Positions 50,879 to 56,850 of a stretch of DNA of 64,000 nt are shown in pieces. Under the pieces are notes generated by a model. It had not been told where the DNA came from and did no database searches. It saw only the letters and a list, made by a program, of their open reading frames with translations. Source of the DNA: Palaeococcus ferrophilus DSM 13482 (GTDB taxonomy: Archaea > Methanobacteriota_B > Thermococci > Thermococcales > Thermococcaceae); assembly GCF_000966265.1 (NCBI RefSeq), contig NZ_LANF01000014.1, positions 1-64,000 of the forward strand, written 5' to 3'. The translations under genes and the position numbers were made by a program. How positions within the stretch are numbered: the first letter of the stretch is position 1; every line of letters begins with the position of its first letter.

Positions 50879-50954
50879 AGCCCCGTGGTGTAGTGGTCAA
50901 TCATCCCGGACTTTGGATCCGGGGACCGGGGTTCGAATCCCCGCGGGGCTACCA
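50879..50954 (+). tRNA. tRNA-Gln (anticodon TTG)
   Basis: Acceptor strands AGCCCCG and CGGGGCT pair perfectly. The anticodon stem CCGGA/TCCGG holds the loop CTTTGGA, anticodon TTG. The T arm CGGGGTTCGAATCCCCG is standard, and CCA (50952-50954) is encoded. A TATA-like AAGCTTATAAG lies near 50842-50852, about 30 bp upstream. It follows speH in the same direction. Confidence 0.95.
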
Positions 50955-51508: not shown

Positions 51509-51715
51509 GTGGGGATAGCATATGAGATACGGAAAATTCTCAGCGAGAACGACGAACTTCCAGTCTCCTTCATCACCCGTCTCCTGAACGAGCGCGGGAT
51601 TGAGGTCTCCCGTCAGAAGGTGGAGAGGGTTCTCAGGGAGATGGTGAAAAACGGAGAGGTGACGTTCACTTTAAACTTCAACAATCGCAGACATTACCGG
51701 CTGGTGAAAATTTGA
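51509..51715 (+). CDS. Small winged-helix DNA-binding protein (68 aa)
   Basis: It encodes AYEIRKILSENDELPVSFIT, then RLLNERGIEVSRQKVERVLR and EMVKNGEVTFTLNFNNRRHY, the three helices and beta wing of a winged-helix domain. The GTG at 51509 is placed 6 bp after GGGGGTG; an in-frame GTG at 51500 lies within that site. Its stop overlaps the TTG start of the next regulator (TTGA), so the pair is translated together. Probably controls the secreted-protein operon that follows. Confidence 0.7.
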   Translation: MGIAYEIRKILSENDELPVSFITRLLNERGIEVSRQKVERVLREMVKNGEVTFTLNFNNRRHYRLVKI

Positions 51716-52152
51716 AGAGTACAACCATCCTGGGCAATGAGAGGCGCATGCTCCTAATAGAGTACCTCCAGAGTAAGGAGGGGAAGGCCGAGCTCCGGGA
51801 TGCCGTGGAGTTCATCGCCGAGAAGGAAGGAAACACGGATCGGAAGCACAGGAAGAGCATATACGTGAGCCTTATTCAGACGCACATACCCAAGATGGAG
51901 AGGGAGGGCATAATCTCCTACCATTCCGGTGTTGTTACCCTCGTTAAGGTACCCGAGAACGTTACCGTTTACATGGAAATGGTCAAGAAGAACGACATCA
52001 GCTGGAGCAGCTTCTACATAGGTATGTCCCTGATATTTGCCGTGGCCGCACTGGTCATAGATAACATGCCCCTGCTTGGAGCTTCCGTTGTTTACCTGAT
52101 CGTTGGCATTGTGAACCGTAGAAGGAACTACAAGGTTGTGGTGGGGGAGTAA
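51712..52152 (+). CDS. Membrane-anchored winged-helix protein (146 aa)
   Basis: The N-terminal two thirds is a winged helix (GNERRMLLIEYLQSKEG, KSIYVSLIQTHIPKMEREGI, ISYHSGVVTLVKVP). The C-terminal third has two transmembrane segments (SSFYIGMSLIFAVAALVI and LLGASVVYLIVGIV). This layout resembles the archaeal HTH-membrane proteins (DUF7344-like) often found beside surface-protein genes. The TTG start at 51712 overlaps the previous stop. A membrane-tethered regulator that senses the envelope is a reasonable inference. Confidence 0.75.
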   Translation: MKSTTILGNERRMLLIEYLQSKEGKAELRDAVEFIAEKEGNTDRKHRKSIYVSLIQTHIPKMEREGIISYHSGVVTLVKVPENVTVYMEMVKKNDISWSSFYIGMSLIFAVAALVIDNMPLLGASVVYLIVGIVNRRRNYKVVVGE

Positions 52153-52193
52153 TGAATGGTTACCACCCGAGTAAGCTGGAATTGTCTATATAT

Positions 52194-52226
52194 CATGAGG
52201 GGCAACCCTAGTCCGAGTGCCTCATG
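52194..52226. promoter_or_regulatory. Inverted repeat in the leader of the DUF1102 operon
   Basis: CATGAGGGGCA and TGCCTCATG can form a stem of about 9 bp with one bulged base and a 13-nt loop. It lies just downstream of a TATA-like TCTATATATC (about 52187-52194) and about 65 bp before the first secreted-subunit gene. It could be an operator for the nearby winged-helix proteins or a leader hairpin that affects translation. Confidence 0.4.
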
Positions 52227-52289
52227 GAAGCCTCCCTTAATTGGGAAAGTTTTTGTGAGACACCCTGAATTTCAAGGGAGGAAAAAATC

Positions 52290-52892
52290 GTGAAAAAAAT
52301 GGCACTTGGTATTTTTGGCCTTCTAGTGGCCGCGGGCCTTGTGCTCGGCGTCGGCGCTAACTTCAGCGACTACAACGCCAGCAGAAGTGTACATTGGAAC
52401 ATCGTCGCCGATGACAATGAGCTCATCGACCTAACCCCCCTCCAGCCCTACGCTTACATAAACGATGGAGGAGTTCTCGTAGTTGACTTCTCGGTAAACA
52501 ACCCGAACTATCCGGGAGAGGGCTACGGCATGGGTATAAGCCCGGCCAGCGAGTACAACTTCGACGAGGTCTTTGAGGTAAGCAACGACCTCTGGGAGGA
52601 GTTCCCGATAGTCGTTAGGATCACCTCGAGCAACACCCACGTGGAGTTCTATGGACACGAGGGCGGAGTTTACTCGGTGTACGACGGAGAAGAGGCAACC
52701 GCCTCGGACAGCGCAAGGGACGACGTGTGCTTTGTTGTCGACCCTGGCGATGCGGTTAAGATCGGCATTGACCTGAGCGCCAACGGCGACAGCCCTGGTG
52801 ACGTTTGGGAGGAGAGCATGCACATCGAAGCCTACAGGTTGGGCACTGAGCCTGCTGAATTGGCGGACTGCGGACAGGGGATGTTAATATGA
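52290..52892 (+). CDS. Secreted DUF1102 protein, candidate filament subunit 1 (200 aa)
   Basis: A signal peptide (MKKMALGIFGLLVAAGLVLG) is followed by VGANFSDYNASRSVHWNIV, which resembles SipW-type signal peptide junctions (A-x-FSD). The mature part is a beta-rich sandwich of about 175 residues starting ADDNELIDLTPLQPYAYI, the DUF1102 hallmark. Shared with the next gene are the blocks ELIDLTPLQPYAY-like, FEVSNDLWE and DAVKIGIDL. The GTG start at 52290 follows GGGAGG at about 9 nt; ATG at 52299 is possible. Two Cys residues in the C-terminal part could form a disulfide. It overlaps the next gene by 4 bp. Confidence 0.8.
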   Translation: MKKMALGIFGLLVAAGLVLGVGANFSDYNASRSVHWNIVADDNELIDLTPLQPYAYINDGGVLVVDFSVNNPNYPGEGYGMGISPASEYNFDEVFEVSNDLWEEFPIVVRITSSNTHVEFYGHEGGVYSVYDGEEATASDSARDDVCFVVDPGDAVKIGIDLSANGDSPGDVWEESMHIEAYRLGTEPAELADCGQGMLI

Positions 52893-53422
52893 ACAAGCTA
52901 ATGGGACTTGCACTACTTATGGTCGGCATGGTCCTTGCAGTTGGCGCAGGAGCTAACTTCAGGTACTACGAGGCTGACAGGGACATAACCGTTGCCATCG
53001 TCGCAGATGACAGCGAGTTCATAGACCTGACACCACTTCAGCCCTACGCATACTTGAGCAACGGTAAGCTCACCATCAAGATTGACGACACCAACCCGAA
53101 CTACAACCAGAGCCGCGGATGGGGCATAGGCCTTAGCCCGAACACCACCTACGTCTTCGAGGAGATGTTTGAGGTAAGCAACGACCTCTGGGAGAACAAC
53201 GAGACTGACTACCCGATATGTGTCAGCATACTGGCACCACCTCAGGCAGAGCTTTTCGTTGGTGAGTGGAACGGAACCACCGCGAGCACACTCCAGTTTA
53301 CGGTCTACCACGGCGATCCCGTCAAGATCGGTATGGTCTTTGACAGTACCGGCATGGACATGGGGATGCACAACTTCCAGATGAGCATCCACGCAGAAGC
53401 TGGCGAGTGCCCCCAGGACTGA
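52889..53422 (+). CDS. Secreted DUF1102 protein, candidate filament subunit 2 (177 aa)
   Basis: This is a paralogue of the previous gene: signal peptide MNKLMGLALLMVGMVLAVGA, then GANFRYYEADRDITVAIV, ADDSEFIDLTPLQPYAYL, FEVSNDLWENN and DPVKIGMVFDS. A 27-bp stretch is identical in both genes (52570-52596 and 53168-53194), which suggests recent duplication or conversion. The ATG overlaps the stop of the first subunit (ATGA). At 177 aa it lacks the C-terminal extension of its partner. It is probably exported and processed by the signal peptidase encoded next. Confidence 0.8.
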   Translation: MNKLMGLALLMVGMVLAVGAGANFRYYEADRDITVAIVADDSEFIDLTPLQPYAYLSNGKLTIKIDDTNPNYNQSRGWGIGLSPNTTYVFEEMFEVSNDLWENNETDYPICVSILAPPQAELFVGEWNGTTASTLQFTVYHGDPVKIGMVFDSTGMDMGMHNFQMSIHAEAGECPQD

Positions 53423-53480
53423 AGGTTTAGGGAGATGATTTCGTTTTAGGGGCCTTTGCCCCGTTTATTGATATTGAAGG

Positions 53481-54563
53481 ATGCGTACCAAAATGAAGCT
53501 AAGTGACGTTTTCACACTCATCGTGCTCTCTTTTCTCGTTGTGTCATTGATAGGATTCTTTTTTGACAGGCCAATCCTAGTTTCTTACGTTACCTCTGAC
53601 AGCATGGAGCCCACGCTGAATCGGGGGGACATGTTTTTCATAAACCCCCTCTCAAAGGGCTCGCCCGGCGATATAGCCGTCTTTAAGATGGCGGGCTCAT
53701 GGACGGTTCACAGGATATACGCCGAGGGGGAGGATGGCTACATAACCAAGGGCGACGCTAACGTGGCCACGGATCAGCAGGAGGGGCGGGCGCCTCCGAT
53801 AAAGAGGAATGACGTCGCCGGAACGGTGCTCACTATAGCAGACCGGCCCATAAAGGTTCCGGGCGTTGGGGGATACATAAGCGAGTTCTCCCAGAGGGGG
53901 AGTGCCCTGTACGCCGCCATAGCCCTGCTCATAATGGGGGCCCTTGTCATCACGTCGGACGAGAGTGGGAAGAAGCACAGGTCAAGGCACCGCAGGAAGC
54001 TATTCTTCAGGGTCAAGTTCAAGACACTCTACGCCGCCACGGGTGCCCTCATGATCGCACTGTTACTGATTTCAATGATGCTGTCGTGGGGGGACGTAAC
54101 CTTCACGTACTCTTCCACGCTGGCAGGCGGACAGAGGGAAGGATGGTACCTTCCGGGAAGCGTCTTTGAGGACGAGATAACGCTGAAAAATGCCGCTGTA
54201 TACCCGTTCGTTTACTTTATAGTTCCCCAGGGGGAGCGTTTTGAGGTGACGACGGACACTCATTTCCGGTTGTCCGGCAACACTGAGGAGAGGATTGGGG
54301 TAAAGGTTCACGTCCCAGAGGACACGAGGATTTACAGGGAGACGATAAAGGTCTACGCATACCTTCCAATCCTTCCCGAGGGTGTCATAGCCTACCTCTA
54401 CAATAGGAACCCCTACCTTCCCTTCGTCGCGTATATCTTGGAGACGGGGGCGTTCTTGGTGTTCCTGTACTCGGTATCGGGCCTTGGGAACGAGGATGTA
54501 ATACGGTACAGGCGCAGAAAATCAGGGCTACTTAACAAACTCCGGGAGGCTGTTGGCTTATGA
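53481..54563 (+). CDS. SipW-type signal peptidase I with extra C-terminal extracellular domain (360 aa)
   Basis: The peptidase domain (about residues 8-140) has the nucleophile Ser41 in SDSMEPTLNRGD, His77 in TVHRIY (His in place of the bacterial Lys, as in SipW and ER enzymes) and Asp92 in TKGDANVATDQQ. Transmembrane helices lie near residues 9-29, 140-155 and 187-205. Beyond these is an extra beta-rich region of about 110 residues (YSSTLAGGQREGWYLPGSVF, then FRLSGNTEERIGVKVHVPED) and a last helix near 323-343. The plain peptidase needs only about 150 residues. It is flanked by its presumed substrates. The start at 53481 follows GAAGG, and the end overlaps the next gene by ATGA. Confidence 0.88.
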   Translation: MRTKMKLSDVFTLIVLSFLVVSLIGFFFDRPILVSYVTSDSMEPTLNRGDMFFINPLSKGSPGDIAVFKMAGSWTVHRIYAEGEDGYITKGDANVATDQQEGRAPPIKRNDVAGTVLTIADRPIKVPGVGGYISEFSQRGSALYAAIALLIMGALVITSDESGKKHRSRHRRKLFFRVKFKTLYAATGALMIALLLISMMLSWGDVTFTYSSTLAGGQREGWYLPGSVFEDEITLKNAAVYPFVYFIVPQGERFEVTTDTHFRLSGNTEERIGVKVHVPEDTRIYRETIKVYAYLPILPEGVIAYLYNRNPYLPFVAYILETGAFLVFLYSVSGLGNEDVIRYRRRKSGLLNKLREAVGL

Positions 54564-55831
54564 AGAAATTACTGGCAATTCTGCTTATTTTGAGTATAGG
54601 GTCCCTTGTGGTGGTGGGCTCCAGTGGAAACTTTAGGGGCTATTCCGCGGAGAGGCCCATAAGGGTGGATGTGGTGTCCCACGATGACGAGTATCTTTCT
54701 TTCACATGCAGGGAAGGTTACGCTGCAACTGTGGAGGTTCCCCCTGACTCGAGCACCGCTTTTAGCGCTCTCAACATCACCAACATGCTCCTCAGCGGGG
54801 GGAACGTGTGGATATGGTTGAGCCCCGACTACAGTGGCCTCCCACCGGGCCTGGACGTGTGGGTGGAGAGCGAGGATGGGACTGAGGTGGCTGTGCCATT
54901 CGGTACGGAGTACAGCTTCTCGGGCCTGGTAACCGTTGATCCCGTTCCGCAGGGCGAGTACTACATTCCCGTGACACTCTACGCACGCTGGGACGGGGGG
55001 GATGCCGTTGTTGAGACGTGCCCGATCCGCGTGATAGTCAAGGACCCACCCCTCCGTAAGGTTCTACTATCCGGCAACACCACGGTCTTGAGCCACACCT
55101 ATCAGGAGTGGACCTTCCAGATAGTGCTCACGAATCCGGGGGAGGAGGACGACTTCGTGGTTAAGGACACCATACCTGGGGAGTTCGACGTCCTCGACGT
55201 GACCCCGAGCAAGGGCACCCACACCCTAACGCCCCACGGCTACTCGCACGAGCTCCTCTGGAGCGTCCACCTCGAGGCCGGCGAGACGGCACACGTGAAC
55301 GTCACGATAGCGACAAGGATAAACGGCGGGGGCAACCAGGAGTTCACGGACTGCGGCATCTATCCCCTCAACGACGGCGCGAGGGTTGTGGGTACGGACA
55401 TCGTGAGCAACTCGCTTGAGGTGGAGTCTGTTTGCGGTGAGTGTGAGATAGAGGTCAATAACACCCTAGTAGATCCGCCGTCCCTATCGTTGCCCCTCAA
55501 CACTCCCATGGACTACACCACGAGGCTCACCGCCATCAACAACGGCGCGGGACGGGCGATCAGCATAACCCAGGACATAGGGGAACACTTCAACGTGACC
55601 GCTTATACGCCGTCCAAGGGAACGGTTGCAGTGGTGGTCCTCAACAACGGAAATACAAGGATTGTCTGGAACCTCTACCTTGCAAACGGGGAGGTTGCCA
55701 CGCTTGAGATAAACGAGCACACGGACGGCATAGGAAAGAAGGGCAACTTCATTCTGGCGGGAACCCCCAAGGTGGGCGGCTGCGGCAACAGCGGAAGCTC
55801 CCTAAAGGTTCACGTGTTTGAGAGCAGATAA
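54560..55831 (+). CDS. Secreted multi-domain surface protein with DUF1102-like start and DUF11-like repeats (423 aa)
   Basis: The signal peptide and junction GSSGNFRGYSAERPIRVDVV followed by SHDDEYLSFTCREGYAAT mirror the DUF1102 subunits. After about residue 150 come two beta-sandwich repeats with a shared FDVLDVTPSKGTH / FNVTAYTPSKGTV motif, similar to the DUF11/CARDB adhesion repeats. Several Cys residues (CGECEIE, GGCGNSG) may cross-link. No membrane anchor is seen. It could be a tip, anchor or minor subunit of the structure built from the two smaller proteins. The ATG overlaps the peptidase stop. Confidence 0.75.
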   Translation: MKKLLAILLILSIGSLVVVGSSGNFRGYSAERPIRVDVVSHDDEYLSFTCREGYAATVEVPPDSSTAFSALNITNMLLSGGNVWIWLSPDYSGLPPGLDVWVESEDGTEVAVPFGTEYSFSGLVTVDPVPQGEYYIPVTLYARWDGGDAVVETCPIRVIVKDPPLRKVLLSGNTTVLSHTYQEWTFQIVLTNPGEEDDFVVKDTIPGEFDVLDVTPSKGTHTLTPHGYSHELLWSVHLEAGETAHVNVTIATRINGGGNQEFTDCGIYPLNDGARVVGTDIVSNSLEVESVCGECEIEVNNTLVDPPSLSLPLNTPMDYTTRLTAINNGAGRAISITQDIGEHFNVTAYTPSKGTVAVVVLNNGNTRIVWNLYLANGEVATLEINEHTDGIGKKGNFILAGTPKVGGCGNSGSSLKVHVFESR

Positions 55832-55848
55832 TCTGGAGGAAATGAATT

Positions 55849-56850
55849 ATGAGCATTAGGATGGAAAATATTGTGAAACTCCTTTCGAGAAAAGAGGTTG
55901 TGGGGGTACTCATCGTACTCCTGATCTTTACCTCCTTTTACTCCCTGAAGGCCCTTGGGGCCCGGGATACACTTCAAACAACCGTAAAGACTGCGGGCTA
56001 CTCGTCGGTGGGAACGCTGACTCACACCGCCCTTCTGGGCAACAACACCCTCTACGGCCCTACGCTATCGAGGCAATACTACCCCGCGCCCCTCGTTGAG
56101 GGGTTCGTTCTGAACTACCGCTATCGCTTCACACCCGGCGACGTCGTCAGAGGGAACTACACCATAAGCGGGAAGGTGACGTACTACGTGACGAAGGGTA
56201 AGGAGAAGGTCATTCTCTGGGAAGAGCCACTGCTCTACGAGAGCGGCGAACTTGAGAAAGGGGGCTTTTCGAAGGACTTTACCCTCGACATGCTGAAGCT
56301 CACCAACGAAACGGAGGCCATATCGGAGCAGCTTGACATGCGCAGGATTGTGAGGGACGTTACCTACAGCGTCAGGGTCAATGTCATAGGAATCATCGCG
56401 GGCAACACGGTCGAGGAGAGCTTTTCACAGGACATGTCCCTTGCCAAGGATGTATCGGCTAACCTCTACTACTTCACCAACACGGAGAAGAGCAAGGGTG
56501 GAAGCGTAACCGAGACGAGCGTAAGGCCAACCACGATGAGCGTGCTCGGGGTCAACGTGAAGACCGCCACCGCGAAAATACTGTTCCCGATACTAAGCTT
56601 CATACTCCTCACGCCCCTGCTCGGGGGAGTGTACACCATAACGGCCTCACGCGAGAGGCACACGGGGCTTGAGGCTTACACCGTGGAGGGGGCACCGCCG
56701 TTTGTGGACAAGAAGGTGCACCTGAAGTCGTTTGAAGACCTCAGAAAGACCTTTGAGCTCCTGGACAGGCCGATAATCCATTACAGGGACGATGGCGACG
56801 TTTACGTCATCGTGGAGGATGGAGTGGCCTACGAGTACAGGGAGAACTGA
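55849..56850 (+). CDS. DUF5305-like membrane protein (333 aa)
   Basis: One transmembrane helix near residues 18-33 (VVGVLIVLLIFTSFYSLKAL) is followed by an extracellular beta-rich domain and a second helix at about 244-262 (FPILSFILLTPLLGGVY). A cytoplasmic tail of about 70 residues ends it. The wording FVLNYRYRFTPGDVVRGNYT and SGKVTYYVTKGKEKVILWEE fits the DUF5305 family, often found next to SipW-type peptidases in archaea. The ATG at 55849 follows GGAGGA. It closes the locus and may hold the surface structure in the membrane. Confidence 0.75.
   Translation: MSIRMENIVKLLSRKEVVGVLIVLLIFTSFYSLKALGARDTLQTTVKTAGYSSVGTLTHTALLGNNTLYGPTLSRQYYPAPLVEGFVLNYRYRFTPGDVVRGNYTISGKVTYYVTKGKEKVILWEEPLLYESGELEKGGFSKDFTLDMLKLTNETEAISEQLDMRRIVRDVTYSVRVNVIGIIAGNTVEESFSQDMSLAKDVSANLYYFTNTEKSKGGSVTETSVRPTTMSVLGVNVKTATAKILFPILSFILLTPLLGGVYTITASRERHTGLEAYTVEGAPPFVDKKVHLKSFEDLRKTFELLDRPIIHYRDDGDVYVIVEDGVAYEYREN

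Follow-up and report, generated by a model that had tools for sequence, protein, structure and literature searches.

A conserved DUF1102 operon of Palaeococcus ferrophilus as a candidate donor-strand surface fimbria with a dedicated SipW-type signal peptidase

Seven genes (g1 to g7) on the + strand of Palaeococcus ferrophilus DNA, at 51509–56850 of the window (the whole 64,000-nucleotide stretch that was analyzed), include two that encode DUF1102 proteins, and the question raised by this locus is whether their products form a fiber at the cell surface. A preliminary description of the DNA had listed seven genes in one direction, and all were found in place (Table 1). It had also counted four ATGA or TTGA overlaps at their junctions; only three 4-bp overlaps exist (g1/g2, TTGA; g3/g4, ATGA; g5/g6, ATGA), and the other neighbors are separated by 137 nt (g2–g3), 58 nt (g4–g5), and 17 nt (g6–g7). 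The Pfam matches of g2 to g7 (DUF7344, DUF1102 twice, Peptidase_S24, DUF11, and DUF5305) all exceeded the curated cut-offs. A tRNA-Gln gene is located upstream of the operon (50879–50954). Inspection by eye of the g2–g3 gap (52153–52289) showed TCTATATATC near 52185, which resembles a TATA box, and CCTCCCTTAATTGGGAAAG, which resembles an inverted repeat; this region could be a promoter or operator.

Table 1. Positions of the predicted features in the window and the evidence for each
Feature	Position	Strand	Evidence
g1, 68-aa winged-helix candidate regulator	51509..51715	+	weak HTH_21/MarR/Arg_repressor matches below cut-off
g2, DUF7344 regulator with C-terminal hydrophobic segment	51712..52152	+	PF24035 4.8e-18; segment 98-116
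g3, DUF1102a, candidate fiber subunit	52290..52892	+	PF06510 1.9e-55
predicted donor strand, mature g3 N-terminus (residues 23-40)	52356..52409	+	model disorder, invariant F and R
g4, DUF1102b, candidate fiber subunit, g3 paralogue	52889..53422	+	PF06510 2e-45
hairpin GGGGC-CTTT-GCCCC, then T-rich sequence, directly after subunit genes	53449..53462	+	conservation vs shuffles
g5, signal peptidase of the SipW/ER type, C-terminal domain anchored in the membrane	53481..54563	+	TIGR02228 2.8e-18
g6, candidate minor subunit: N-terminal domain like that of the subunits, with Ig-like/DUF11 domains	54560..55831	+	DUF11 3e-6
g7, DUF5305, candidate base or assembly component; two hydrophobic segments	55849..56850	+	PF17231 8.4e-12

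DUF1102 was detected in 87 of 94 Thermococcaceae genomes (72 of the 74 good ones), as two to four paralogues per genome, and in almost none of the other sampled families of the same phylum. Two nearly complete Thermococcaceae genomes (G025 and G040) gave no DUF1102 match and are apparent losses of the whole fiber. The order g2-g3-g4-(third copy c)-g5-g6-g7 was kept in all 20 Thermococcaceae neighborhoods that were read, with varied flanks; g2 was present in every one of these loci and g1 occupied its position in 16 of them. The g6 place has only a short protein in one genus (labeled g2, not the gene g2) and no called gene in locus L034. Archaeoglobi contigs carry the same operon between different flanks and, taken with the 20 Thermococcaceae neighborhoods, this places the gene set far beyond chance. 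In the sample of the Archaeoglobi phylum, DUF1102 was found in 59 of 393 genomes, among them high-GC genomes that look haloarchaeal by composition and signal-peptide style. Twelve high-GC DUF1102 loci were inspected: SipW was found in 8 of the 12, DUF5305 in 7 of those 8, and adjoining DUF7344 homologues in most, with gene order only partly kept. SipW and DUF5305 adjoin the DUF1102 proteins in L125, L127, L128, L130, L131, L142, and L143. The search of archaeal neighborhoods suggested by the preliminary description thus found DUF1102, SipW, and DUF5305 together in Thermococcaceae, Archaeoglobi, and many high-GC loci. One genome of the Archaeoglobi phylum carries a second operon (L134:7695-9263) with multiple DUF1102 genes, including one that encodes a 522-aa fusion.

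The first two genes would regulate the set. Two winged-helix regulators, one of them membrane-tethered, had been proposed; g2 has a DUF7344 domain followed by a hydrophobic segment, and g1 is a weak winged-helix candidate whose best Pfam match (HTH_21, 5e-4) falls under the cut-off.

The designation of g3 and g4 as DUF1102 paralogues was confirmed by PF06510 scores of 187.4 and 154.9 bits, respectively, against a gathering cut-off of 22.2. The AlphaFold2 monomer model of mature g3 (pLDDT 83, pTM 0.80) is all-β, and its residues 1–9 have pLDDT values below 50. ANFSDYNASRSVHW lies at g3 residues 23–36, within the predicted donor strand (residues 23–40), whose F and R are invariant in 58 sequences. 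Comparison of the model with the PDB using Foldseek returned the bundling pilin AbpA of Pyrobaculum calidifontis (7ueg) first (E 1.4e-5, prob 1.00), followed by structures of FimA and of a cannula tube from an archaeon. AbpA is likewise an all-β subunit with an N-terminal strand, and its bundling pili are described in the literature as donor-strand fibers. It differs from g3 in belonging to another phylum, with an identity of only 10% and a TM-score of only 0.35, a low value that may reflect a different placement of the N-terminal strand.

Evidence from sequence leads to pilins by a separate route. A high-GC DUF1102 protein with 39% identity to g4 over 109 residues (BLASTP E 2e-16) matches PDB entry 9p0a, “Pilin”, with E 2.4e-12, and a second high-GC DUF1102 protein matches the same entry with E 1.1e-7; the bridge from g4 to 9p0a through the first of these spans the signal peptide and N-terminal half. 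Direct profile searches of PDB chains gave a weak match to 9p0a with profile A1 (E 0.18) and none with the mature-only profile A3, and AbpA was absent at E≤10 from the DUF1102 profile searches. The fold evidence (AbpA) and the sequence evidence (9p0a and Taf) are independent. The g4 homologue also matches the NCBIfam fimbrial models TafE, TafA, and TafC, below their equivalog cut-offs. The Taf models (TafA/C/E/F), judged from where they match, appear to be haloarchaeal. The links to the Taf proteins and 9p0a are that the high-GC relatives exceed the Pfam DUF1102 cut-off, that g4 resembles a Taf-like protein to the extent given above, and that many of the same loci hold SipW, DUF5305, and DUF7344. 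Against this, g3 and g4 score only 18.5 and 18.0 bits with TafA (equivalog cut-off 190) and do not match TafE, and many of the high-GC relatives differ in having signals of a twin-arginine-like kind and subunits that are larger and fused. The operon is most likely related to haloarchaeal Taf-type pilins by sequence and to AbpA by fold. Searches of the literature library returned no mention of DUF1102 and nothing on TafA–F.

The principal alternative to a fiber is that the DUF1102 family consists of exported β-sandwich proteins, either soluble or associated with the S-layer, that bind some partner and never polymerize. Such folds are widespread, and the later PDB matches of g3 do include nonfilament β-proteins, but the top matches are mostly subunits of donor-strand filaments, a DUF1102 homologue matches a solved pilin, each genome holds two to four paralogues, and the N-terminal strand is disordered in the g3 model. 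We regard this alternative as improbable, though worth more weight than the others considered below.

In the proposed fiber, the N termini of g3 and g4 would be freed by cleavage, and the candidate enzyme is g5. The earlier assignment of g5 as a SipW-type peptidase is supported by matches to Pfam Peptidase_S24 (1.5e-7) and to the NCBIfam archaeal signal peptidase I model (66.3 bits; cut-off 51.85). Ser41, His77, Asp92, and Asp98, which we take to be the ER/SipW-type catalytic set, are invariant in 29 sequences, giving a Ser-His-Asp active site in place of Ser-Lys. The score with the Bacillus SipW equivalog NF046067 was 24.1 bits, against a cut-off of 190. The protein has four hydrophobic segments, and hhalign gave no support for a relation between its C-terminal domain and DUF1102 (probability 3%). 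In the Pyrococcus-like locus L044 (7272-8338), the SipW gene is called as two overlapping frames of 147 and 228 aa, reflecting a frameshift or assembly error. Two residues past the predicted cut, g3/g4 and g6 have an invariant Phe. TasA also has Phe at P2', and the published work on that substrate describes cleavage by SipW and poor cleavage by Escherichia coli LepB (PMC10269814).

These parallels bear on the suggestion that the operon is a true member of the TasA/camelysin family. Like tapA-sipW-tasA of Bacillus, it pairs candidate substrates with an adjoining, dedicated peptidase of the ER/SipW type, the substrates share the aromatic P2' residue, and the donor-strand idea applies to both. 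The operons differ in gene set, and the present one lacks TasA, TapA, and a camelysin domain: g3, g4, and g6 gave no match at E≤1 to Camelysin (PF12389) or TasA (NF046066) and none to the SipW-cognate signal model TIGR04088. TasA was also absent from the 50 best fold matches of g3. The genome does contain a TasA-like locus, on another contig (L095:6954-11148; G000:C13:129953-134147), where camelysin/SipW-cognate proteins, of which proteins 1 and 3 pass the TIGR04088 cut-off, accompany a DUF5305 gene and a SipW that more nearly resembles that of Bacillus (NF046067 1.1e-24). On the evidence of the domain and signal models, membership of the operon in the TasA family is largely refuted, and we consider it very unlikely. 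By eye, an alanyl-tRNA synthetase-like gene follows the L095 locus. Elsewhere (L096:7364-9187; G000:C18), a gene for yet another SipW-like peptidase, the third, whose C terminus is extended at length, adjoins a gene for a 170-aa secreted protein with a weak choice-of-anchor R match.

The remaining two products fit the minor parts of a fiber. Alignment with hhalign relates the N-terminal domain of g6 to the DUF1102 profile (95.2%, E 2.5e-8), consistent with the earlier view of a larger protein sharing the N-terminal design of the subunits. Its AlphaFold2 model (pLDDT 89) has disordered residues 1–20 followed by well-predicted β-domains, and Foldseek returned multi-Ig proteins, including the legs of integrins and domains of the AgI/II adhesins of streptococci; this is a generic multi-Ig resemblance. 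The DUF5305 assignment of g7 was upheld, and only two DUF5305 matches in the genome exceed the cut-off, both adjoining SipW genes.

Collectively, these results make a chaperone-free surface fimbria joined by donor-strand exchange the probable product of the operon. In such a fimbria, g3 and g4 would be exported via their signal peptides and cut by g5 beside the invariant x-F motif, and the cut would free the N-terminal strand A-x-F-x-x-Y-x-A-x-R to fill a groove in the neighboring subunit; the predicted mature N termini are NFSDY for g3 and NFRYY for g4. With the same free strand and its Ig-like domains, g6 probably serves as a minor subunit, at the tip or for adhesion, and g7, perhaps with the extracellular domain of g5, may hold the fiber at the membrane. 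The third DUF1102 copy c, found in relatives and absent from the window, has a hydrophobic N terminus with no A-x-F motif after it and may stay anchored. The earlier proposal of a surface fiber with free N-terminal donor strands is thus well supported by the top AbpA match, the disordered N termini, and the homologue resembling a solved pilin, and its TasA label is dropped. The thread of Sulfolobus offers a further comparison: its secreted subunit, Saci_0406, is joined by donor-strand complementation and paired in its operon with a second protein, and the published model employs signal peptidase 1 with no dedicated peptidase (PMC9715654). The dedicated peptidase sets the present operon apart, and no sequence link between Saci_0406 and the operon proteins was found.

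The subunit genes are followed directly by a hairpin. Among 76 distinct sequences downstream of g4, 47 contain a perfectly paired stem of 5 bp or more closed by an NTTT loop, or 47 of 59 Thermococcal loci when 13 Archaeoglobi and 4 misassigned genes are removed (our count); 0.3 were expected in shuffles, and the upstream control had 0. The hairpin at 53449–53462 is the sole perfect NTTT-loop hairpin in the 64-kb window, and its interpretation as a generic terminator of this DNA was therefore rejected. A loose form of the sequence pattern is not rare (2 matches, against 3 in the control). The stems vary between species by paired changes at four positions; this count is partly circular because only perfectly paired hairpins were selected, and the fair number is therefore the one from the shuffles. 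Our guess is that the hairpin sets the level of subunit mRNA relative to peptidase mRNA.

Comparison of relatives gave conflicting affinities within the operon. The operon of a congener, L032, is syntenic with that of the window and has identities to it of 48% (g3), 43% (g4), and 44% (g5), whereas L051, from another genus, reaches 83%, 73%, and 60%. The pattern is reversed for g6 and g7 (38 and 51% for L032; 29 and 38% for L051), and trees agree with it. In AU tests, with groups picked after the identities were seen, placing the window with type II was rejected for g3+g4 (p 0.006) and, weakly, for g5 (p 0.041); for g6+g7, placing it with the L047–L051 type was rejected (p 0.006). Two loci of one genus, presumably Pyrococcus-like, provide a finer view: L044 and L045 are about 75–98% identical over g1, g2, and the g3 signal-peptide region, drop to about 27–67% across the mature parts of g3 and g4, and recover to 83–90% from about 35 nt past g4. 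The hairpin lies near the right edge of this stretch in L044. The same stretch is also the most divergent between L045 and L046, so it is fast-evolving in general. We take these comparisons to mean that the two subunit genes make up a hypervariable cassette that is exchanged horizontally, which is a new finding; in the L044–L045 pair its bounds are the signal-peptide region and the hairpin. A more tentative interpretation, to which we give somewhat less than even weight, is that the mature parts of g3 and g4 form an exchange cassette under diversifying selection that is swapped between species and genera, flanked by the resident signal peptide and the conserved hairpin, while the regulators, Ig-like minor subunit, and DUF5305 protein stay. 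Horizontal exchange of the subunit genes might also suggest a domesticated viral or mobile-element structural module, but near-universality in the family, the fixed gene order, and the cellular-type peptidase and regulators that belong to the set make this highly improbable, and a viral origin by fold was rejected as no viral fold matched at E≤0.001.

DUF1102 is near-universal in Thermococcaceae, yet it is still named for its unknown function. Reading the operon as a donor-strand fimbria would unite Thermococcales, Archaeoglobi, and haloarchaea-like genomes in one family and would give DUF5305 a testable role beside SipW. Thermococcus and Pyrococcus are genetically tractable hosts in which to ask how fibers assemble with neither chaperone nor usher, and the exchanged cassette offers a direct test of selection on the fiber surface. 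On the more tentative reading of the cassette, the body of the fiber would be swapped like an antigen, perhaps for escape from viruses or for marking kin, which would be new for archaeal donor-strand pili.
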